A stretch of DNA of 64,000 nt from Agelas oroides (lineage: Eukaryota; Porifera; Demospongiae; Agelasida; Agelasidae), in NCBI GenBank assembly GCA_949130485.1, contig OX422185.1, forward strand, positions 12,595,967 through 12,659,966. Direction: 5' to 3'. Below are positions 9,866 through 41,562 of the stretch, one piece after another. Both the position numbers and the translations under genes were made by a program. The notes under the pieces are model-generated. The model was not told the DNA's origin and searched no databases. It saw nothing but the letters and a program-made list of their open reading frames with translations. Every line of letters begins with the position of its first letter. Positions within the stretch are counted from its first letter, which is position 1.

Positions 9866-9911
<46 letters not shown>

Positions 9912-12900
9912 GTGTGAAAAATTCATTGAAGATCTGGTTTGTTAGCTCTGTCATACTGTCCCTGCTAACTAGTTGTTCCTACTAGTGTAGTAGCTATTTT
10001 TGTGAGTAGATCTGCTCTAGTAGTAGTTCTCCAGCTACTTGGAAAGTTTGGGAACAGTTGCTCTGCTGAAACCTTGAATAATCCACTTGGAAGTTTTTTC
10101 ACACCAAGACTGATGGCAGAACAGATGGTTGCAAGAAGTTCAGAGGGAATGCCCCTTCTGTGGGCAGTTCTTTCAAGGGCTTGGGAACCATCTCCAACAC
10201 TGCAAGGACAGGCAAGGAAGAAATTACTCCCAGTACCTCTCCAAGAAGACTCTGCAGAAGAAGACTAGAAAGAGAAAAGAACTTTGCCCAAAGTGCCAGA
10301 AATCTTTTCTTCGTTTGGACACCCACCTGAAGAACAGTGCCTCCTGCAGGAGTATATCTCCCCCAGCTATCAATTGTGAAACTCTAGAACCTGACAGCTC
10401 TGGTCCAACTAGGTCAGAGAACCCTCCAAACCAACCAGATGATGATTTTTCACACTTCCATGATACAATGCCTCAGCACTTACACAATGCTGCCCCCATC
10501 TCTGCCATGCCAGGTAGCAGCAGTGACCCACCTCAGTGCAAGGCACCACTAAAGCTCCCATCTTCCAGAGAAGATTGGCAGAAAGCCAATGCCTTCTTCA
10601 AGGAGAACTTAGTTCCAACTGTTCTCCAAGCTACCTCAGCTGAAGAGAAAAACTACATCTTGGCTGATGGTATCTACTCCTATTTTTCCAGTCACTATGG
10701 GATCAAGCAGAGCTCAACAACTTCCAAGAGGAAAACACCCAGGCATGAGAAACATGACAGAGCTTTGAAGAAGGTAAATGAGCTGAAGAACAAAGCAAGG
10801 AAGGACCTCAGACAAGCCAAACGAGAAGGGAAAACAGGGGAAGTCATCCTCTCTCTTGCCAGGAATTTCTTCTCCCTAGTCCGCCAGCAAAGCCAGCTGA
10901 AGAAAAAGTCAAGGAAGTCTAGCGAGGCTAGCTCAGCTGAAAAGACCCGACAACACTGCCACAAGAACTTTTGGAGGTTTGCTCGTGAACTCCTCAATGA
11001 TGATGTAGCCTCCAAGATCAGTCCACAATTCTCAGCAGACGAAGCTTTTCATTTCTTCAGCACTACATACCAGTCAACCCCAGCATCCTTTATGAGACCC
11101 AGCTGGATGCCTACACCTCAGCCACCCACCACAGAGTTTGAGACAGACACGATTGTGGCTGAAGAGATTCAAGCAGTGGTCAAACGCACTAAATCTGGCT
11201 CTTCCCCCTCCCCTTTTGACCAGGTTCCATACCAAGTGTTCAAAAGATGCCCAGATCTCACAGCAGCCCTCATTGACCTCTTCAACTGTTGCTGGGCCAC
11301 TAAGACCATTCCTCTAGCATGGAAGACCGCAGGGATCAAACTGCTTGGGAAGAGTTCAGCCATTGACAACCCATCCACCCCCACCAATTTTAGGCCAATT
11401 GCACTGACATCATGCATTGGTAAGATTTTCACCTCTATCCTGAAGAACAGGTGGCTCAACTATATGCTTGAGAATGGATATCTAGACCCAGGAGTCCAGA
11501 AGGCTTTTATGACAGCTACCCCAGGATGCACAGAACATCATTCGAAACTAGCCTCCATCCTATTCGAAGCCAGAAAGAAACACAAGTCTCTTGCAGTAGC
11601 CTGGCTAGACCTAGCCAACGCCTATGGTAGTGTACACCACTCCCTCATCCAATTTTCCATGAAGCACTATCATGCTCCACCTGAGCTGTGTTCCATCTTA
11701 GATGCTCTCTACTCAGACTTGTCAGCCACCATTCTAACACAAGAGTGGACAACTCCCAGCATTCCCCTGAAGATCGGTGTGTACCAGGGTGATCCACTCT
11801 CAGTAGTGGTGTTCAATACAGTAATCAACTCTCTTCTTGACACCCTACAAACACGAGACGACCTTGGCTATACCCTCTCAGACACCCAAGACAGAATCAA
11901 CCTCCTGCAATATGCTGACGATACCTGCATTGTTGCTGATGGTCCAGCCACCTGCCAACACTTGTTGACCATGGTTGAGAGATGGCTTGCATGGTCAGGG
12001 ATGAAAGCCAAGGTACCAAAGTGCTTCTCCCTTGCTCTACAGGGCTCTACAGGACGTACCTTTGACCCCCAACTTACGCTGGAAGGCCAAACACTCCCAT
12101 TCATGGGAAACCAAACCATCAAGTTTCTTGGTCTCCCCATCAGAATTCCTCATGATCCCACCATGGCCAGAGTCAACCTCAAGGAGTCCCTTGATCGCAT
12201 GCTCAAGTCAGTAGACCAGTGCCCAGTCACACGAAAGCAGAAACTAAAACTGTACAAACTGGGCGTCTGTCCACGACTGAACTGGCCACTAACCATCCAT
12301 GAGCTTCCTCTCACATGGATTGAGCGACAGCTAGAGGCAACTGCTACACGCTACCTTAAAAAGTGGGCCGGTCTAGCCAAACCAGCAAACCCCAACCTCC
12401 TCTATCTCCCGAAAGAGAGTGGAGGCCTCAGTCTGCCATCTCTATCATCCCTCTACAAGCAGCTCCAAATCTCTCGACAGTGCCAGCTTCTCACATCCTC
12501 TGACCCCTGTGTCAGGAGGATAGCTGAGAAAGGTCTTCAGTCTGAGGAACTGGTACAGCGGAAGAAGTTCCGTCCAGCAATCACTGTCCGTAATACCATG
12601 CAACAGGACCCATCTCTCTCTAGGAAGGCACTGAGAGTGGCAGCAAAGAGAAGTGTGACAAAAGAAGATGACCATGCACGACTGTCCCAACTCCAGAGTC
12701 TCCCAAGACAAGGCCACATGGTTCGATCCTTTCCACCTGATATGCCAGCTGTCTGGGCAGAAGCAGTACAGGGACTCCCAGACGAGCAGTTCAAGTTTGC
12801 CCTGAATGCTGCTCATGACACAATTCCCCACAACGCAAACTTGCACCTCTGGAAAAAGAAGGACCATGACACCTGCACCCTCTGTGGGGATGACCACCAA

Positions 12901-15900
12901 AATCTGGTCCACGTCCTCAACTCCTGCAGGGTGGCAAGAGACTTGAGACGATACAATGAGAGACATGATGCAGTGCTGGCCCTTCTCTATGAAGTGGTCA
13001 AAGAACACCTCCCAGACACAACCTCATCAACAGTGGATCTCATCAGCTCAGAGTATTCTTTCCCCTGCCACATTGTAGCCACTGATCTGAGACCAGACAT
13101 CATCTACTGGGATGAGACAACAAAGAAGGCGTCCCTCATTGAACTAACAGTGTGCTTTGACACTCTGTTTGAAGGTGCCATCAAGCGGAAAGAAGACAGG
13201 TACCAGGAACTACTGGATACCATTCAGGACGCCGGATACACAGCAAGCCTGGTGACAATAGAAGTGGGGTCACGAGGAATACCCAATCCCACTGGCTTCC
13301 TCAAGCTGAAAACAAACCTTGGACTCTCCAGAGCCACACTAGTCAATCTCATGGTTACGGCATCGAGACAGGCCATCACTGGGTCTTTCAAGATATGGTG
13401 CATGAGAAACCAAAAGTAGACAACACCTTAAACTCAGTGTTCTAATTATGTTGTATTGTAATCCGTTTGTAATGGTCTATTATTAGTAACAATCTGTATG
13501 TAGCTTTATGACCTCTGTGGATAGAGCCAAGTGATTGTGCAGTGCTTTTTGTAGAACACTCAGACAGTATGACCTTGGACATCTCTACCCCTCATTGTGT
13601 TGTGTATGTATATTACATTGCATTGCAACTCAATGAAGAGTTTTTCACACACGAGAAGGAGAGAAGGAGAGAAGTGTGAAAATTTCATTGAAGTGTAGGT
13701 TTCAAGCTCTGTTCTACTGTCCTTACTTAGTACTAGTTGTTGCTAGCATAGTTGATGCCTGAGTGGCTAAACCTGCTCTAATAGTGGTGCTGCAGCTGCT
13801 GGGAAAGTTTGGAGACAGTTGCTTTGCTGGACTCAAAGATACACAACTCTGAAGATTTTTCACACCTGGATCAATGGCTACCACTCCAGACCAGAGACCA
13901 AGAGGAGCCCTGCAGAACTGTCCCTTCTGTGGAAATGAGTTTAGAGGTCTTGGAAACCATCTCCCCCACTGCAAGGATAGGCAGGGAAGAGACCATTCTA
14001 TATACCTTGCCCAGAAGACCTTAGAGAAGAAGTCCAAGAAGGGTAGTAGGAAGGCTTGTCCCAAATGTCACAAGATGTTTGTCAGACTGGACACTCACCT
14101 GAAGAATAGTGCCATCTGCAAGTCTGTAGCCTCCTCAGATCCTTCTCCTCCCCCTGAACCATCACCACCAGCCATTTCAGATCCCCCTGAACCATCACCA
14201 CCAGCCATTTCAGATCCCTGTATACTGAACAATATCCCAATGCCAGCAAACTCAGCCCACCACCAGAAGCCCGACCTGAGACCCTCCCTAAAGCTCCCCT
14301 CTTCCAAAGAGGACTGGGCAGAGGCAGACCTTCACTTCTGTGAACACCTTGTACCTGCAGTCATAAATGAATCCTCAGCAGATGCCAAAAACAGTGTCCT
14401 TTGTGATGGCATTTATCAGTACTTCTCTGAGAAGTATGGTGTCAGACGGTCCAGTCCTGGCAAGGCTGAGAGGAAGAGGAAAAACCATGACAGGGCTCTT
14501 AAGAGAGTAAAACAATTGAAGAACGCAGCCAGAAAGGAGTTCCAGAGAGCGAAGCATGAAGGCCTTCCACCAGAGAGCATCCGAGTTCTAGCACAAAACT
14601 TCTTCACACTAGTGAGAGAGCACAACCAGCTGAAAAGAGTTTCCCACAATGCCAGCCTGGGAAAGCAAGCCAGAAAAGCGAAGAAGTGCTGCCACCATCA
14701 TTTCTGGCGATATGCCAAAGAACTATTGGATGATGGTGCAGCAAACCAGACCACCCCCCAGCTTGGAGAGGAAGTAGCTGCTGACTACTTCGAGGATGTC
14801 TACCACTCCACCCCCAAGATCTTCAACCGCCCTGACTGGATGCCAACCCCCCAGCCCCCAACTGAAGAATTTTACTGTGAGGAGATAGCTACTGAGGAGG
14901 TGCAGTCTGCCATCAAACACATGAAAATTGCATCCACTCCATCTCCATTTGATCAGGTTTCGTACATGATCTTCAAACGATGTCCATCCCTAAGAATGGC
15001 TCTAGTAGACTTTTTCAACTACTGCTGGGCCCAATCGGAGATACCGTCCCAATGGAAAATTGCAGCTATCAAATTGATTGGGAAGAGCTCTGCTGCAGAT
15101 GACCCCACATCCCCGTCCAACTTTCGCCCCATTGCACTGACATCCTGTGTGGGTAAGCTGTTTACCACCATCCTCAGAAACCGTTGGCTCAGCTATATGA
15201 CCACCAATGGCTACCTGGACAGTTCTGTCCAGAAAGCATTCATGAAGGCCACCCCTGGTTGCACTGAACACCAGAGTAAGTTAGCAGCCATCCTTGCAGA
15301 AGCCAGGAAAACCCACAAGTCATTGGCAGTGTGCTGGCTAGACTTGGCAAATGCTTATGGCAGTGTACACCACTCCCTAATCCAATTCTCAATCCAACTC
15401 TACCATGCTCCGGCTCAGTTCTGCAACATCCTCCAGTCACTCTACTCAGGACTCCTTGGTACAATCATCAGCAGCAGTTGGTCCACTCCCACCATCCCAC
15501 TGGAAGTTGGCGTCTACCAGGGTGACCCCCTATCGGTCATAATTTTCAACACTGTCATCAACAGCCTTGTGGACACCCTACAGACCCGACCAGACTTGGG
15601 ATTCTCAGTCTCCAACTCCCACCAGGTCAACCTCCTCCAATATGCGGATGACACCTGCATCACTGCAAATAGTCCTGCTGCCTGCCAACATCTCCTTGAT
15701 ATGGTGGACTCATGGTTGCAGTGGTCAGGAATGCGAGCAAAGGTCCCCAAATGTCACTGCCTAGCACTGCAAGGCAAGCTGCTCGACCCCCACCTATCAA
15801 TCCAAAACCAAACCATCCCCTTCATTGGTAGTGGATCCATCAAGTTCCTTGGTATGACCATCCAAGTCCCTGCCAATCAGTCAGAAACGAAGAGCGTTCT

Positions 15901-18900
15901 AAAGACCAACCTTGAGCACATGCTGAAAGCAGTTGATGCTGCTCCAGTGACAAGATGCCAGAAACTGCGGCTGTACAAGGCTGGTATATGTCCACGGCTG
16001 ACATGGCTGTTGACTGTCCAAGAACTCCCCATCACTTGGGTGGAGCAGCAGTTAGAAGCAACAGCTACAAGATTTGTGAAGACGTGGGCAGGTCTAGCAA
16101 AGTCAGCCAGTACAGCTCTCCTATACCTCCCCCAGAGAATGAGTGGCCTGAACTTACCCTCCCTGTCTGCCCTTTACAAGCAGCTCCAAGTCTCAAGACA
16201 GTGCCAGCTACTGACATCAGCTGATGCCTGTGTACGACACCTGGCAGAGAAGCACCTACAGAAGGAGGACAGACTATCCAGGAAGAGCTTCACAGTGATA
16301 GTTCGTGATACCCTAGCTGACGATCCAGGCCGTAACAGGAAAGCCCTGTCCCTAGCTGCCAAAAGGAAAGTCAAAGACAGGGAGGCTAGACAGCGACTCT
16401 CCCAGGTACAGCAACTTCCGAAGCAAGGAGAAATGATTCGTGCCACCTCCTCAGAAACAGCAGCTGTATGGGCCAAAGCAGTCCAAGCCCTACCCTCCAA
16501 CACCATGAAGTTCGCTCTCAATGCCGCTCATGACTCTCTCCCACATAATGTCAACCTGCATATGTGGAAGAAGAGAGATAGCCCCACTTGTCCATTGTGT
16601 GGAGAGAGGCAGAGTCTACTGCATATTCTCAACAACTGCAGTGTGGCAAGAGACCTCCGACGCTATAACCACCGTCATGATGCAGTGCTGCGAGAGATCG
16701 TTAAGTTTGTCCAACCGAAACTCCCCCCAGCGACTAACCTGGCCGCCGACATCAATGAGTATGCATTTCCCACGCACATTGTCCCCACAGACCTCCGCCC
16801 AGACATTGTTTGGTGGGATGACCAGCAAAAGTCTCTCATGCTTGTGGAGTTGACCATCAGCTATGAAACTAATTTCGATGATGCAGCTGAGAGAAAGGAA
16901 GTGAAGTATGAAGAACTGATTACTGGAGCTCAAGCCTCTGGCTATGACGCTGAACTCATTACGCTAGAGGTTGGCTCTAGGGGAGTAATCAACCCTGCTG
17001 GCTTCAAGCGTCTCAAACAGACCCTCAATATCTGCTCCACCGATATGTCCGAATTTCTACTGTGCACTTGCAAGCAAGCAATTGAAGGATCATACAGCGT
17101 CTGGTGCAGTAGGAACAGAATAACTTGAATCTGTGTATGTTTACATTATCGTTTGTGCTGTCAGTATTGTTATACGCATACCTTTTAACTACTCTGTGGT
17201 GACCCAGTTAATATGTGCAATGCAATTGTTTAGCATTTAGGCATCTACACTGGAATATGTTACCCCCTTATTGTATTGTACATTGTCTCACAATGCAATG
17301 AAGGAGATTTAATGAAATGAGAGAGAGAGAGAGAGAGAGAGAGGACACCCCACTCACTGTGTTGCACGTCCAGCTTCTGTAACACTGTTGGGAGGCTGCC
17401 AGAACTTGAATGGTATACGAAGAAGGGAGGAGGGTTGAATGCAAATCAGTGGCTTCCCTGCAAAGAAGTAAGCCACAATGTCCTCCTGCAACATACTAAG
17501 CTGGAACTCAGAAGCCTTCACTGTCTGCAGTAGGCTGGATGAGGTGGATGTGTGCTGCTGTAGCTCCATATGAACATTGTCAGAAGATGGGTGATAGCGG
17601 CTACGGACCAGCTGCAGAAAGTCATTGATGCCATGGAGGCTGGTAGGAGGGAATAAATTGATGTGAATTCACTTGTCCATATCTCAGAGGTTACTGCAAA
17701 TGATATGATACATAATGTACTTCAAGGAATAGTTACCAACCTTTCACTATTTCCAACAATGCAGTTTGAGTTGTCATTAAGTTCAGAGGTGTACACCTTT
17801 GCTGGTTCCTCTGGGAGGAAGCGGGTCAGGGGGAATGGTTGCTGTTGCACTTTAGCGGTGGAGTAGACTCCCTCAATGAAGGCATTGTGAGCTGTTATGA
17901 TGTGTTTCGCCACAGTATACAGACAGTCATCTCCCTCACCCTCAGCTACTACATGTGTTAGATAGAAGCTGTGATTAACACAACTACATTAGCACCAACA
18001 TGGTTACTTGCCACCAAGAAGATCCTATCATTAGCACAATTAGACATCTCATACCAGAGAGATAGTTCAGTAGTGGAATATCATCAGCAATGGTATAGAT
18101 TTTAGTTCCTTGTCTCAGTGCTGCATACGCTCTTATACCAATGGCACCACCAATCAGCTCCATGTAGTGGTTGTATTCCTCTGTGCATGTGTGCATATGT
18201 GTACATGCTGCAGTAATCAGGGCCAGTACCCACCATTGTGTGCTGAAAGCAACTGACCTTTGACCCTGTTGTACAGTGTCTGAATGTGCTTGCCTTCTTC
18301 TTTGCTGTACCTACGGACTGCCAGCTCCACTACACGACCAACTGAAATGGTTGCCGCATGCTCCTTTGTAACCAGGTGTGCTAGTGTGTGTGTGAATGTT
18401 CATTATGTATGCTAACTTGACAGCAGCTGAAGCAACATTTAACTTTATGTATGTAGCACAGGCTCACAAAAGGCTGTGTGCAGCCACTGGAGAGTTGTAG
18501 CATGCTCTTTTGTCACCAGATGTGCTAGTGTACACATATTTGTATGTGCATTATGATAACGCTTTGGTCGGTGTCACAGCAGCTTAGTCACTACTACTAC
18601 ATGTATGTAGGACAGGCTCACCAAGGGCTGTGTGCAACCACTGGTAGAACTCCAAGAGATCAGGCAAGAGAAGTCCTCCTGCCTGGAGCTGAGGCCACTC
18701 TTGTGCAAACCGGCCTAGCAGGTAAAGGTCTCCACCCTGGGTATGACTTTGAATGTCCCCAGAATTCAGGACACTGTGGATAAAGTCTTGCTCAGTGGGA
18801 AAGCTGGGGTAGCACAGTCCTAAATGTCTGCAGAGGGACATCAATATGACATCACAAAATCATGTGGCCAGTGTTGGATGTCGGAGTCAATCTACACACC

Positions 18901-27495: not shown

Positions 27496-28707
27496 TCACA
27501 GTCCATGGCCATATCTCTCCACAGGCCTTTGAGGTCTTGAGGAACGTCTCAGGGTAGGGTGGGATGGCAGCACAGGAGGAACTGATTGAAGTACAGGTGA
27601 TGAGGATGTGTCTGGCAAGTACAATGGATCGACATTGTCACTCTTGTTCTGCTGAACCTTTGCATGTCTCACACGCAGTGAGTCCACATGTCTACGAACA
27701 GTGTGTCCAGACTCCAACTCCGCATGGTAAGACAGAGGTCCTGTAACCTTGACAACAGTGCCTGGTAACCACTTCGGTGATGATCCGGTGAAGTTCTCAG
27801 CATACACTGTATCACCAACACAAAAGGAACGTAAAGGAGCAGCCGAGTCATGAGTTTGCTTCTGCTTCCTCTGTTGACTCTCGACTCTCTGTGAGGTGTC
27901 CGGAAACCATGAATCTAGTCTGCACCTGATGCGACGACCAATGAGAAGCTCGGATGGCGCTACTCCTGTGACTGAATGAGGAGTTAGCCTGTAGTTGAAA
28001 AGGAATTTGGAAACACGTTCTTGAAGAGTGGTGCCAGAAATTCGAGCTATTCCTCTTTTGAGAGTTTGCACTGCTCTCTCTGCTAAGCCATTGCTTGAAG
28101 GGTGATATGGTGCTGACTTGACGTGTACAATTCCGTTCTTCTGCATAAACTCCTGAAACTCGTAACTCGTAAACGTTGGACCATTGTCTGTTACGACTTT
28201 GCGAGGAATCCCATGGTTTGCAAAGATGATACACAGTTTCTCAATCGTTTTCGCTGACGTAATTGAGTGCATGAGATGAACATCCATCCATTTAGAGTGA
28301 GCGTCGACGAGTACAAGGAACATTGATCCCATGTATGGACCTGCAAAATCCAGGTGGATGCGACTCCATGGCTCAGATGGCCATTCCCAGGGATGCAAGG
28401 GAGCGGCAGGAGGAGAAGGTCGGGACTCTTGGCATGTCTGACATTGTTTTACTGTGTCCTCAATGGCTGAGTCCATCTTTGGCCACCAAATGTAGTTCCG
28501 GGCAAGACTCTTCATTCTAGCGCAGCCGGGATGAGTCTCGTGTAACTCTTGTAAAACAAGCTCTCTTCCCTGGGGCGGGATCACCATGCGTGACCCCCAC
28601 AGGATACAACCATCCCAAGCGCTCATCTCAGTCTTCCTGGAGAGGAAGGGCTTGAACTTCTCGTCAGTGATCTGATCCGGCCAACCTGTCTGAATATACC
28701 GCAGCAC
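27496..28707 (-). CDS. Gypsy integrase region of Pol
   Basis: Starting from the minus-strand end of the element, about 403 codons carry the integrase zinc-binding region (HETHPGCARMKSLARNYIWW, then CQTC) and the DDE core: DFAGPY, VDAHSKW, TDNGPTF and a NGLAERAVQTLKRG segment carrying the catalytic Glu. A C-terminal SRPQRP tail and an SH3-like region GDTVYAENF follow. Integrase joins element DNA to the host chromosome. The frame is the same as the upstream gag-pol frame, separated from it by one in-frame TAA. Confidence 0.95.
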   Translation of the reverse strand: MLRYIQTGWPDQITDEKFKPFLSRKTEMSAWDGCILWGSRMVIPPQGRELVLQELHETHPGCARMKSLARNYIWWPKMDSAIEDTVKQCQTCQESRPSPPAAPLHPWEWPSEPWSRIHLDFAGPYMGSMFLVLVDAHSKWMDVHLMHSITSAKTIEKLCIIFANHGIPRKVVTDNGPTFTSYEFQEFMQKNGIVHVKSAPYHPSSNGLAERAVQTLKRGIARISGTTLQERVSKFLFNYRLTPHSVTGVAPSELLIGRRIRCRLDSWFPDTSQRVESQQRKQKQTHDSAAPLRSFCVGDTVYAENFTGSSPKWLPGTVVKVTGPLSYHAELESGHTVRRHVDSLRVRHAKVQQNKSDNVDPLYLPDTSSSPVLQSVPPVLPSHPTLRRSSRPQRPVERYGHGL

Positions 28708-28767
28708 TCGAGAAAGTACTGGGTCTTTGGCAGTCCAGCTTCTGATGACACCAGCATTGATGGATGT

Positions 28768-31404
28768 TTAAGAGAGATGTAGAACCAGTTGGGCCAGCTC
28801 ATCTAGTACACAATCTGAGTTAGTAGTGATCGGGCGGGGTAGTCTGCTTAGAGCATCTGCATTATTCAAGGTTTTGCCCGACTTGTACCTGATATTATAC
28901 TGGTAGGCTGCCAGTGTAAGTGCCCATCTCTGTATTCTCGCTGATGCCATGGCTGGTATGCTTTTAGTCTCATTGAAGAGATGTGAGAGTGGCTGGTGGT
29001 CTGACTCGATGGTAAATTGTCTGCCGTAGAGGTAATTGTGGAACTTTTTCACGCCGAAGACTATGGCCAAGCCTTCTCTCTCAAGTTGAGAGTAGTGACG
29101 CTCGGCGGAATTGAGGGTCCTTGAAGCATAGGCTATGGGCTTCTCTTCACCAGTGTCAAGGATATGCGAGAGGACAGCTCCGATACCGTACTCTGATGCG
29201 TCGCAAGCCAGGAGCAGAGGTTTGGCACTGTCGTAATGTACCAAAACGGAGTCTGCTTGAAGAGCTTCTTTGGCGAGTTTGAAAGCCATGTCGTGTTGTT
29301 CAGTCCAAGTCCAGCGCTTGTTCTTGAGCAGGAGGTTGTACAGAGGTCTCAGCTTGGTGGAAAGATTTGGCAAGAATTTCGAATAGTAATTGATGAGACC
29401 GAGGAATGAGCGAAGTTGAGTGACGTTCTTGGGTGTAGGGGCTTCCTTGAGAGCAGCAATTTTGTCATCTGTTGGGTGTAGTCCATTTTTGTCGATGACG
29501 TGCCCCAAGTACTCGATACGAGGCTTCAAGAATGAGCACTTTGTGTGGTTGAGGCGTAAACCTGCATTTTCAATGCAGCTCAGTGTCGCGTCCAAATTCT
29601 GTAGGTGCTGATCCGTGGAACACCCGGTAACCAGGACATCATCTTGGTAGACGGAAACTCCTCTCAATCCCCTAAGCAATGTCTCCATGGTCCTTTGAAA
29701 TATTGCTGGGGCTGATGACACGCCAAACGGGAGATGATTAAATTGAAACAGCCCTTTGTGGGTGTTGATAGTGACATATGGTTTGGACTCGTCAGACAGT
29801 GGCAACTGTAGGTAGGCATTGGACATGTCCAACTTGGTGAAAAGCTTGCCTCCAGAAAGATCAGCAAAAAGGTCATCGACTCGTGGCAGTGGGTAGGTCT
29901 CAGTGACAGAGGCTTGATTGATGGTGGTCTTGAAACCCCCGCAGATCCTAATGGTACCATCACTCTTTGGAACAGGGACGATGGGGGCTGCCCACTGGGA
30001 ATGCTGCACAGGGGATATAATGCCTAGCTGCTCCAGCCTACTCAGTTCTTTTTCAACCTTCTCTCTCAGAAGGTAAGGGACAGTTCTGGGCTTCAGGAAC
30101 TTGGGTTTAGCAGCTTCATTCACCTGTAAGGTGACCTTGGCATCTTTTAGGCACCCTAGGCTCCCATCAAAGACAGCCTCGTGCTTATCTAACACTTCTT
30201 TGATCTTGTCATGCTCCAGTAGATTCACCTGACCTATGTTGACATTAAGTCTCCCCAGCCAGTCTCTGCCCATTAAGTCAGGTCCCTCCCCAACAACTAC
30301 CTGGGCTGATAATGTAGCCACAATCTCACCATAGTGCACTGTCATGTTGGTTGCCCCGACAACCGGTATAGGTTCATCTGTGTATGTCAGTAGCCGGGTA
30401 GTAGAAGGATGGAGGGTGAGTGTGGCATCATGTTGCTTCAGCCGGTTGAACGTCGCTTGGCTAATGATCGAGAGAGACGCTCCCGTGTCTAACACCATGT
30501 CCACAGGGACGTCGTTCAGGAGGACCTGCATTCGGGTCGGCTCATTCGATTGATCCTCCAGTGTGAACATTTCGTACGTGTGGTCCGTTTCGTCTTGTGT
30601 CAACTCCTCGGTTACGAACATGTTCTTGCGGGTGTTTTGTGATGGCATAGATGTCTCCTGAGCTCTCCTCTTAGCTCTGCAGACGCGGGCTAAATGACCT
30701 TTTTTCCTACAGAAGCCACATTCAGTGTCCTTGTGACGACACACATTTGCAAGGTGGTTGCCTCCACACCTATAGCACGTAATTTCGCCCTTGCTCTTGC
30801 TAGGAGACATCTTCGTAGAAGACTTCCCGCGTTCTTTACTGTGACTGTAGAGAACAGGGTTGCTGTGTGAGCGTTCAGCTTTCAAATTCTTGGTGTCTCG
30901 TTCGGCAACTTTGATAGCAACAGCAACGCTGTACGCCTTGTCAAAGTCGAGTTCTTTCTCGGCTAGTAACTTCTTCTGAATCCCATCGTGATTGACGCCG
31001 CAGACAAGTCTATCTCTAAGCATCTCTGGCAGGGATGTACCGTAGTTGCAGTGTTCGGCTATTTCACGAAGGGCGGCAACGTAAGCAGCTACGGTTTCTC
31101 CAGGCGCACGATTGCGAGTGTTGAACTTGTAACGCTGAACGATCGGCGAGGGCAATGGCTCATGGTACTCCTTGACCAGAGCACACAGCTCAACGAAGGT
31201 CATGGTAGGGAACTTGCTCGGGTCAGCCAAGCTCTTGATCAGCTTGAACGTCGCAGGTCCGCACACGGAAAGTAGTATTGCACGTTTCTGTTCAGCTTCC
31301 GTGACTTTGTTCGCAACGAAGTAGTGACCGAGCCTCTCAGTATAAATACTCCAGCTCTCCTTGCCTCCAGGCTGGAACTCAGACATTGTTCCGTGCATCG
31401 CCAT
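28768..31404 (-). CDS. Gypsy Gag-Pol: Gag, protease, reverse transcriptase, RNase H
   Basis: ATG at 31404 opens 878 codons, ending at TAA 28768-28770. In order there are: a Gag capsid-like region (WSIYTERLGHYFVANKV); two CCHC knuckles (CYRCGGNHLANVC and CGFCRKKGHLARVC); an aspartic protease (VLDTGASLSII); a reverse transcriptase (KLDMSNAYLQLPL, YQDDVLV); and an RNase H (ACDASEYGIGAVLSH, ESDHQPLSHLF). Gag and Pol are in one frame. The stop after LVLHLS separates RNase H from integrase, so either the copy is defective or the codon is read through. Its position in the nested stack and its near-identical LTRs show late arrival. Confidence 0.96.
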   Translation of the reverse strand: MAMHGTMSEFQPGGKESWSIYTERLGHYFVANKVTEAEQKRAILLSVCGPATFKLIKSLADPSKFPTMTFVELCALVKEYHEPLPSPIVQRYKFNTRNRAPGETVAAYVAALREIAEHCNYGTSLPEMLRDRLVCGVNHDGIQKKLLAEKELDFDKAYSVAVAIKVAERDTKNLKAERSHSNPVLYSHSKERGKSSTKMSPSKSKGEITCYRCGGNHLANVCRHKDTECGFCRKKGHLARVCRAKRRAQETSMPSQNTRKNMFVTEELTQDETDHTYEMFTLEDQSNEPTRMQVLLNDVPVDMVLDTGASLSIISQATFNRLKQHDATLTLHPSTTRLLTYTDEPIPVVGATNMTVHYGEIVATLSAQVVVGEGPDLMGRDWLGRLNVNIGQVNLLEHDKIKEVLDKHEAVFDGSLGCLKDAKVTLQVNEAAKPKFLKPRTVPYLLREKVEKELSRLEQLGIISPVQHSQWAAPIVPVPKSDGTIRICGGFKTTINQASVTETYPLPRVDDLFADLSGGKLFTKLDMSNAYLQLPLSDESKPYVTINTHKGLFQFNHLPFGVSSAPAIFQRTMETLLRGLRGVSVYQDDVLVTGCSTDQHLQNLDATLSCIENAGLRLNHTKCSFLKPRIEYLGHVIDKNGLHPTDDKIAALKEAPTPKNVTQLRSFLGLINYYSKFLPNLSTKLRPLYNLLLKNKRWTWTEQHDMAFKLAKEALQADSVLVHYDSAKPLLLACDASEYGIGAVLSHILDTGEEKPIAYASRTLNSAERHYSQLEREGLAIVFGVKKFHNYLYGRQFTIESDHQPLSHLFNETKSIPAMASARIQRWALTLAAYQYNIRYKSGKTLNNADALSRLPRPITTNSDCVLDELAQLVLHLS

Positions 31405-40204: not shown

Positions 40205-41562
40205 TAACTAATGAAGCAGCTTACAGATAAGCTGGTGGGTTCTATCATGGTGGATTTGAGTAAGGCGTTCGATATGGTTAGCCATACCATTCTACTCAAG
40301 AAGTTGGCAAGCTATGGTGTAAGGGCTGGTGAGTTAAGATGGTTTGATAACTATTTGAATGGGAGGAGACAGAGGGTGTGTATCAATGGAGTTCAGTCAT
40401 GTTGGACAGATATTTTGAGAGGAGTTCCACAAGGATCAATTTTAGGACCCTTGTTGTTTACAATATATGTAAATGACTTGCCACAATCTGTAGTCCATGG
40501 GAAGATCAAACAGTATGCAGACGACACAACCTTATATACTGTCAGTGACAACATTACAGATCTGTCGAATAGTTTGAGTATGGATCTTGCAGGAGTGACT
40601 GAGTGGGTGGAACGGAATGGGCTGCAGTTAAATCAAGCAAAGACCCAGATGATTCTGCTGAGCAGGAAGAAGAGGTCCAAAGAGTTGGAGAATGTGGTTG
40701 TTAAATTAAAGGGACAAGAAGTGGCTCGAAGTAGAAAGGTGAAGTATCTCGGAGTATGGGTGGATGAAGGTTTGACTTGGGTGGACCATGTGGAGGCAGT
40801 TCGAAGGAAGTGTTTGGGAGGCTTGGCAAAGCTGAGAAGGCTAAGAGATACTCTGCCTGCAGCCCTGAAGAAAAACATCTACAATGCACTAGTGTTGCCA
40901 CATCTGGACTATTGCTGTGTACTCTGGCAAGAATGCGGAATTCAGCTTCAAAAAAGAGTGGAGAGGATACAGAACTATGCAATGAGGCTTATTTGTTCAA
41001 AACCACCAAGGACACCTAGTGAAGAACTGAGGAGTGATATGAACTGGATGCCCCTGTCGAAAAGACGGGAGTTGTTCAGGTTGGTACTAGTCCACCGGTG
41101 TGTGCATGGGCGAGCACCTGCCTACCTGGCAGAGTGTTATGAGACTAACAAACAGTATGGACATTGTGTTACACGGGGAGCCAATAAATTGCATTTAAAG
41201 TCAGTGAACACAGAGTTTGGCAGGAGAGCTACCATGTTTAAAGGTGCACAAGAGTGGAACAAGTTACCGGCAGATCTGAGAAATGTGCAGAACATTAACA
41301 CATTTAGAAAACTCTTAAAAACTCAATACATTTGTGGCATTAGTACCTGAGTGTATTTTTACCTGTTTTCTTTAATTTTTGCTACTTCCTGCATGTTTGC
41401 AGTATTGTATTTAACCTTTTGCTTGTATGGTTTCCTTTCTTGTTTTGTTCTTTGGTGTTGTATGTATATACAGGACTCCCTGGTGGACCAGCCACTGGCT
41501 GAAGGGACATTTCCTGCTTGAAATTAAAATTAATCAATCAATCAATCAATCAATCAATCTTA
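40205..41562 (+). mobile_element. 5'-truncated CR1/L2-like LINE
   Basis: A partial reverse-transcriptase ORF is followed by a 3' UTR that ends in (AATC)n at 41527-41559. Head-truncation and a short-repeat tail are typical of target-primed LINE insertion. It is intergenic, upstream of the RASSF promoter. Confidence 0.85.
40211..41350 (+). CDS. Partial LINE reverse transcriptase
   Basis: 379 codons begin within the RT domain: VDLSKAFDMVSHTILLKKL (motif A), GVPQGSILGPLLFTIYVNDL (motif B) and YADDTTLY (motif C). The thumb and a C-terminal LGVWVDEGLTWVDHV...LPHLDYC region follow. This signature is that of the APE-type Jockey/CR1/L2 superfamily. The endonuclease and N-terminal ORF are missing, so the copy cannot be autonomous. 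The RT part itself has no stop, so the insertion is fairly young. Confidence 0.93.
   Translation: MKQLTDKLVGSIMVDLSKAFDMVSHTILLKKLASYGVRAGELRWFDNYLNGRRQRVCINGVQSCWTDILRGVPQGSILGPLLFTIYVNDLPQSVVHGKIKQYADDTTLYTVSDNITDLSNSLSMDLAGVTEWVERNGLQLNQAKTQMILLSRKKRSKELENVVVKLKGQEVARSRKVKYLGVWVDEGLTWVDHVEAVRRKCLGGLAKLRRLRDTLPAALKKNIYNALVLPHLDYCCVLWQECGIQLQKRVERIQNYAMRLICSKPPRTPSEELRSDMNWMPLSKRRELFRLVLVHRCVHGRAPAYLAECYETNKQYGHCVTRGANKLHLKSVNTEFGRRATMFKGAQEWNKLPADLRNVQNINTFRKLLKTQYICGIST

Follow-up and report, generated by a model that had tools for sequence, protein, structure and literature searches.

Our finding that two full-length retrotransposons lie head to tail between purine-rich repeats in a 64,000-nucleotide (nt) stretch of contig OX422185.1 of the sponge Agelas oroides (the whole stretch being referred to as the window), along with a survey of their relatives in the genome, makes us highly confident that the two are members of one clade of non-long terminal repeat (non-LTR) retrotransposons which encode a restriction-like endonuclease within a single open reading frame (ORF) and target purine-rich simple repeats. 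Oriented purine repeats join the target classes of the retrotransposons with a restriction-like endonuclease, and for such elements they appear to be a target of a new kind: no report of this targeting was found among the matches listed in the open-licence literature, which by itself does not establish its absence from print. The family also fits the working type of a microsatellite-specific retrotransposon with a restriction-like endonuclease, in that most copies seem to be flanked by a pre-existing simple repeat.

Both members of the pair are 3.6–3.7 kb long, lie on the plus strand and share the 5' start GTGTGAAAA, as had been noticed when the window was read from sequence alone. Copy 1, of subfamily F5, extends from its 5' box to the 3' end TTTTTCA (9912..13647) and is preceded by (AG)19 then GAA (9871..9911, plus strand), the (AG)19 itself covering 9871-9908 according to Tandem Repeats Finder and the outer limit being set by reading of the junction. 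Copy 2, of subfamily F1 (13674..17315; like copy 1 delimited with end probes), is followed by (GA)12.5 at 17319..17343 on the same strand (Tandem Repeats Finder), and the tract between the copies, GAGAAGGAGAGAAGGAGAGAA (13653..13673, plus strand), constitutes both the 3' junction of copy 1 and the 5' junction of copy 2. The sequence-only reading had placed GA-rich tracts at all three junctions; purines are indeed found at each, but the middle tract, although composed of purines throughout, is not perfect GA. Since the proteins encoded by the two ORFs are just 56% identical, the copies have evidently diverged and a recent duplication is excluded, in agreement with the proposal that two separate insertions occurred at one target. 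Much closer relatives exist for each: copy 1 has the sisters L012, L013, L015, L016 and L025 (∼99.3–99.6% identity over the respective alignments), and copy 2 the partial relative L026 (98% identity across 1606 columns).

The genome surveyed comprises 259 Mb in 141 contigs. A protein search yielded 52 matches at 30 loci, and the copies considered here come from the 42 candidates that were scored out of 2938, so that they represent the top matches as opposed to a complete census; the loci were sorted into subfamilies F1–F7 plus singles. No match to relatives elsewhere was obtained in the collections genome_contigs and viral_contigs. End probes applied to the retrieved loci located 38 3' ends and 18 intact 5' ends. 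Six further 3' ends (L044–L049, of which L047 and L048 look duplicated) were added from hits reaching the C-terminus, and a 5' box pattern, with 102 matches in the genome versus 70 for the reversed control, was followed up at 11 matches, eight of which carry a true element leader and three of which are chance matches. An element end was taken to have a tract if a purine run of at least 15 nt lay within 50 nt of it, while truncated 5' junctions were judged by eye and kept outside the counts.

Purine runs of this length are present at 23 of 26 5' ends and 37 of 44 3' ends, whereas pyrimidine runs of at least 15 nt occur at none of these 26 and 44 ends; at the junction tracts, the purines are always on the sense strand of the element. 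In random 50-nt windows, the same purine run is encountered in 1.4% (64 kb window outside the elements) or 3.3% (distal flanks) of cases, so that the binomial tails are all below 1e-30, these being nominal values given that ends in trains of stacked copies share tracts and that copies share descent. A perfect (GA)10 is found within 60 nt of 12/26 5' ends and 19/44 3' ends. Genome-wide, it has 6033 overlapping matches on both strands of the 259 Mb, which merge by eye into 15 tracts across the first 6 Mb of contig C1, and all-purine 25-mers occupy 0.26% of strand positions. Because (GA)10 is so rare and purine runs are so infrequent in background windows, the association of element ends with purine tracts is not due to chance. 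Among the prospectively added ends, all six 3' ends (L044–L049, one duplicated pair included) are at purine tracts and five of the eight 5' ends with true leaders pass the threshold, a sixth (L037) having a run of 14 nt; the three ends fetched last (one 5', two 3') are likewise at purine repeats, as judged by eye. GA as such, which had been proposed as the target, fares less well: a strict (GA)6 is present at only about half of the ends (13/24 clade-assigned 5' ends and 24/44 3' ends). The worry that most copies might lack GA repeats is hence borne out in part for GA itself, but not for purine runs.

The preference for particular purine repeats follows the phylogeny. In a tree of the reverse transcriptase (RT) from 31 copies, with R2 and L1 as outgroup and with target labels assigned by eye, F6, F7, L020, L027 and L052 form one clade (support 100/100) that uses mostly G-rich purine repeats, and the remaining copies use mostly (GA)n. 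At 5' ends, (GA)6 is present in 12 of 14 cases for the GA-using subfamilies versus 1 of 10 for the G-rich clade (Fisher 5e-4; two diverged copies omitted), and at 3' ends in 20 of 31 versus 4 of 13 (p 0.053). The target is accordingly the purine-rich repeat, with (GA)n preferred by one set of subfamilies and G-rich purine repeats by a supported clade. The tree is rooted by distant outgroups and leaves several deep forks unsettled, so that the direction of the change in preference is undecided. The difference in preference among these related elements can be used to find the determinant of specificity.

It had been recognized from the outset that the GA tracts might prove to be part of the element, either because its RNA has GA ends or because GA is added upon insertion, with the site of insertion not being chosen at all. 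That the tracts flank both sides of most copies, and that perfect (GA)10 is rare genome-wide, would accord with this idea. However, copies of subfamilies F6 and F7 are ∼98–99% identical within each subfamily and nonetheless reside in differing purine repeats. For F6, these are (GA)n for L018, (GGGA)n for L019 and L028, a GGAAGAGAGGGAGG-type repeat for L021, a GGGGAGAG-type repeat on the 5' side of L022, and (GGGAGGGAGA)n on both sides of L058/L044 (contig C14), the type of repeat being the same on both sides at five of the six sites, with L022 as the exception. When the left and right types are compared for the eight copies of F6, F7 and L020 whose 5' end is intact, 361 of 40320 permutations match as well, and without L022, whose 3' side has no purine repeat, 5 of 5040 are as good. 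Moreover, L024 is located inside a purine minisatellite of which many units precede the copy and 19 nt of a unit resume on its far side, and L003 and L004 are located inside a long purine-rich GACAGAGGGA-type satellite. The type of tract thus follows the locus. Since near-identical copies occupy different purine repeats, mostly of the same type on both sides, the tracts are best read as pre-existing targets, and we consider it extremely unlikely that they belong to the element. Copies sharing 98–99% identity also suggest that the family has been active recently.

Adjacent copies in the same orientation are observed at 11 loci, and 16 of 17 neighbour pairs, part of the count extending over 54 sources, share their orientation, the exception (L052) resembling an inverted internal segment. 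In 14 of the 16 same-orientation pairs, members of different subfamilies are combined. A train on contig C9 reads GA-F5 fragment-GA-F3-GA-F4 fragment-GA-F5-GA, with F3 and the last F5 being full-length, and the pair in the window is a small version of such a train. On contig C8, three related copies (L060, L048 and L047) are found at 6.646, 6.713 and 6.779 Mb, two of them within an apparent duplicated segment with differing GA lengths. Stacking could in principle have arisen by recombination between GA tracts, through unequal exchange or gene conversion, instead of repeated targeted insertion: simple repeats can recombine, the segment with L047 and L048 looks duplicated, and two of the 16 pairs, L006 (F3-F3) and L010 (F4-F4), unite copies of one subfamily. 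We regard this as very unlikely, though, considering that all other pairs unite different subfamilies and that copies either reach the 5' box or lack their 5' part, with simple 3' tails that vary, the pattern expected of target-primed reverse transcription. Even less credible is the idea that insertion is random and only those copies survive selection which happen to lie in harmless purine repeats. Simple repeats are mostly harmless sites, so that selection could help, but the element ends are far above the background of 0.26% for purine 25-mers and 3.3% for distal flanks, and in one orientation only; selection would neither fix an orientation nor split GA from G-rich repeats along the phylogeny. 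At L010 (∼C2:23503790-23503810), a GA tract is separated from a truncated F4 copy by two TTAGGG telomere-type units.

Targeted insertion into purine repeats has to account for the features described, that is, purine tracts at the junctions, a tract type set by the locus, preferences that follow the tree, stacking in the same orientation, 5' truncations and variable 3' tails. Given that the sense strand bears the purines, geometry makes the pyrimidine strand the primer strand. The endonuclease would then nick the pyrimidine strand within the tract, and the nicked 3' end would act as primer for target-primed reverse transcription of the element RNA, beginning at the RNA's own 3' end, as in R2. 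Specificity might be conveyed by the N-terminal fingers, or else by base pairing between the pyrimidine primer and purines located at the RNA's 3' end or past it. The same orientation of neighbours would follow from a requirement that the sense strand be the one with the purines. Insertion would split a tract without consuming it, so that two targets remain for use; this would explain the trains and represent a case of an insertion multiplying its own target. The 5' truncated copies that occur in the family fit target-primed reverse transcription, and so do the simple 3' tails, which vary: F6 has poly(A) stretches of different lengths, F7 has (TA)n and F3 has ATG-type tails. One may speculate further, unlikely as we consider it, that the target is chosen mainly by nucleic-acid pairing over protein reading, and that the 'non-site-specific' R2 relatives of sponges are partly purine-repeat specialists. 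Usable sites would then include all purine-rich strands that face a pyrimidine primer able to anneal to purine-rich RNA at the element's 3' end or just past it, one clade would differ from its relatives by its use of G-rich purine repeats in place of (GA)n, each insertion would double the targets, and purine-repeat targeting could be a state that preceded 28S specificity.

Several observations weigh against targeting of purine repeats or limit its generality. The threshold is missed by 7 of 44 3' ends and 3 of 26 5' ends. The 3' ends of L003, L004 and one of L006 are purine-rich with runs of only 12 nt, and L011 has merely a short GA stretch at its 3' end; the 3' end of L015 lies in GT-rich repeat DNA, the 3' side of L022 is a non-purine minisatellite, and the 3' end of L025 is followed by a truncated F3 copy after just 9 nt, in which there is no purine. 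On the 5' side, the diverged copy L042 adjoins (GATT)n, another possible target, the diverged copy L043 lies beside a weaker purine stretch with a run of 10, and the truncated ends of L005 and L026 are without a tract (by eye). The side-to-side comparison of repeat types gave only four of eight rows that are best on the diagonal. Furthermore, the counts are partly non-independent owing to tracts shared within trains and to shared descent, the copies are the best-scored candidates and therefore no complete census, insertion is deduced from sequence, and the determinant of specificity is only proposed.

The assignment to retrotransposons with a restriction-like endonuclease was already part of the sequence-only reading and is confirmed: RT is followed by CCHC and the endonuclease in one ORF, residues P-D, E and K of the endonuclease are conserved, and the family profile matches R2. 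As a single query against the PDB, copy 2 scores 138–144 bits with vertebrate R2, 83–87 with silkworm R2 and 76–78 with L1. The family profile gives vertebrate R2 a score of 187–206 bits across RT, linker, CCHC and endonuclease, profile positions 268–1073 matching R2Tg, while L1 reaches 109 bits (114 for 8c8j, which we take to be an L1 structure) and silkworm R2 93–98 over the RT only, that is, less than L1. A Foldseek search gave seven matches at E ≤ 0.001, all of them R2, with template modelling scores (TM-scores) of 0.12–0.18 on a poor model. All four R2 target sites found in 28S ribosomal DNA (rDNA) with what is presumably the R2 site pattern are uninterrupted and no separate 3' half-site was detected, in an assembly that may collapse rDNA; three of the sites are on contig C5 (8.56–8.75 Mb, spanning nearly 190 kb, both strands) and one is on C88. 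A Myb domain was not found with Pfam at E ≤ 10 in five N-termini, the HMMER filters dropping most weak matches. Hence, the label 'R2-like' is justified in so far as vertebrate R2 matches best among solved proteins, but assignment to the R2 clade itself would be tentative, because the 28S sites are empty, no Myb was detected, silkworm R2 scores below L1, and the set compared consisted of R2 and L1 sequences only. Like R2 of zebra finch (R2Tg), turtle (Platysternon) and silkworm (R2Bm), the elements appear to combine, in one ORF, N-terminal fingers, RT, a CCHC knuckle and a PD-(D/E)xK endonuclease; unlike R2, they are found in purine repeats instead of 28S, lack a detected Myb and, in F6, end in poly(A), and R2Bm matches over the RT only.

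Microsatellite targets are familiar from other elements: Dong of the R4 clade uses (TAA)n, and Kibi/Koshi of the R1 clade likewise insert into microsatellites, so that they resemble the present family in this respect, with Dong differing by its TAA target and Kibi/Koshi by an APE-type endonuclease. It is quite possible, if somewhat less than evenly so, that the family represents a lineage other than R2 (HERO, Togen/NeSL, Utopia or R4) using purine repeats, a classification which is compatible with the targeting described here. Microsatellite specialists with a restriction-like endonuclease exist, according to parts of PMC4640811, with Togen being specific for (TG)n and some HERO families being microsatellite-specific; Togen thus shares with our family the specificity for a dinucleotide microsatellite, but it inserts into TG repeats, is from fish and has an unresolved placement near NeSL and HERO. 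The failure to find Myb points in the same direction, since Myb-less sponge relatives are filed under Utopia in sections of PMC13188248, whereas those bearing Myb are there termed non-site-specific; so does the score of silkworm R2 (98 bits with the family profile, below the 109 of L1). Utopia, as outlined in portions of PMC4640811, also has N-terminal fingers, RT, a finger plus restriction-like endonuclease and occasional tandem insertions, but its target is the U2 small nuclear RNA gene, whereas the junctions here are purine repeats and an Rfam scan of the window yielded no U2 gene. A placement outside R2 would have to be reconciled with the 187–206 bits that vertebrate R2 attains through the endonuclease, and with all seven Foldseek matches being R2, their low TM-scores on a poor model notwithstanding.

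The sponge elements described in sections of PMC13188248 are similar in kind: they are characterized as R2-homologous, lie outside 28S, lack Myb in some cases and have variable flanking sequences; the present family is likewise R2-like, outside 28S and without a detected Myb. The fingers of E. muelleri-1 are all CCHH, in contrast to the CCHC pattern observed here (same source, in part); the CCHC pattern neither includes nor excludes R2, since turtle R2 is reported in those sections to carry both CCHH and CCHC fingers. Purine repeats are not mentioned for the sponge elements in the sections of PMC13188248 concerned, and their 'variable flanking sequences' could be different purine repeats locus by locus. 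This offers a testable reading of 'non-site-specific' R2 relatives that bears on the origin of 28S specificity, and the label would need to be revised for at least the present lineage. Non-specific R2 families have also been described in a planarian and a fluke (PMC5035012, in part).

The ORF of copy 2 (13874..17128, plus strand; 1084 residues, ATG start) comprises two N-terminal fingers in conserved columns (13919..14119; C16-x2-C19-x9-H29-x3-C33 and C62-x2-C65-x9-H75-x6-C82), both matching the pattern C-x2-C-x9-H-x3/6-C, that is, CCHC, with C19 lost in L024. These are followed on the same strand by the RT domain (PF00078; 15113..15862, Pfam E 7.9e-26) and by the CCHC knuckle plus PD-(D/E)xK endonuclease (16589..17113). 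YADD is invariant in the family alignment, which would fit an active RT, and the retained P976-D977, E992 and K1008 would fit a PD-(D/E)xK nuclease. In both ORFs, Pfam reports RT plus a sub-threshold zf-RVT. The AlphaFold model is poor (mean predicted local distance difference test score, pLDDT, of 48) and contains two long helices, at 145–164 and 169–188, in the stretch between fingers and RT where a Myb domain would lie; residues 931–1080 are better ordered (block pLDDT 64–89), and the knuckle is at ∼51–53. The ORF of copy 1 (10129..13419, plus strand; 1096 residues) likewise encodes two N-terminal CCHC-pattern fingers, RT, CCHC and restriction-like endonuclease, and begins with TTG according to the ORF tool. 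The ATG used in sister copies lies upstream in copy 1 and, through differences within 10090-10160, is out of frame with its long ORF; normal translation of copy 1 may therefore be doubtful.

In the leaders of both copies, which are on the plus strand, GTGTGA can pair with TCACAC: at 9912-9917 and 10099-10104, before the ATG region, in copy 1 (leader 9912..10104), and at 13674-13679 and 13860-13865 in copy 2 (leader 13674..13865). All 11 leaders aligned (F1, F3–F7, L020) start with GTGTGA and have TCACAC (TGACAC in F4) directly before the start codon. A stem formed by these segments is predicted by alifold, while single-sequence folds of F6, F7 and L020 are without it, and the pairing is nearly invariant, so that it gains no covariation support. 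An HDV-like (hepatitis delta virus-like) 5' ribozyme was considered and dismissed, given that Rfam gave no hit, the stem shows no covariation and the single folds of F6, F7 and L020 lack it. At the other end of the element, the F6 copies L018, L019, L021, L022, L028, L044 and L045 carry AATAAA plus an A-run of variable length, which suggests a polyadenylated transcript. Inverted segments of the leader region are found within or beside a copy in L052 (226-749) and L041, and perhaps represent 5' inversions that occurred during insertion.

A host gene surrounding the pair was looked for, but ten minus-strand ORFs there have no Pfam family at the cut-off, and one of them that was tried is without a PDB match. 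Elsewhere in the window, a separate long interspersed nuclear element (LINE)-like RT ORF lies at 40211-41350 on the plus strand, with no purine array adjoining it in the Tandem Repeats Finder list. An LTR-type retrotransposon is located at 27496-31404 on the minus strand, its ORF at 28768-31404 containing protease, RT and RNase H domains and the adjoining ORF appearing integrase-like by eye.

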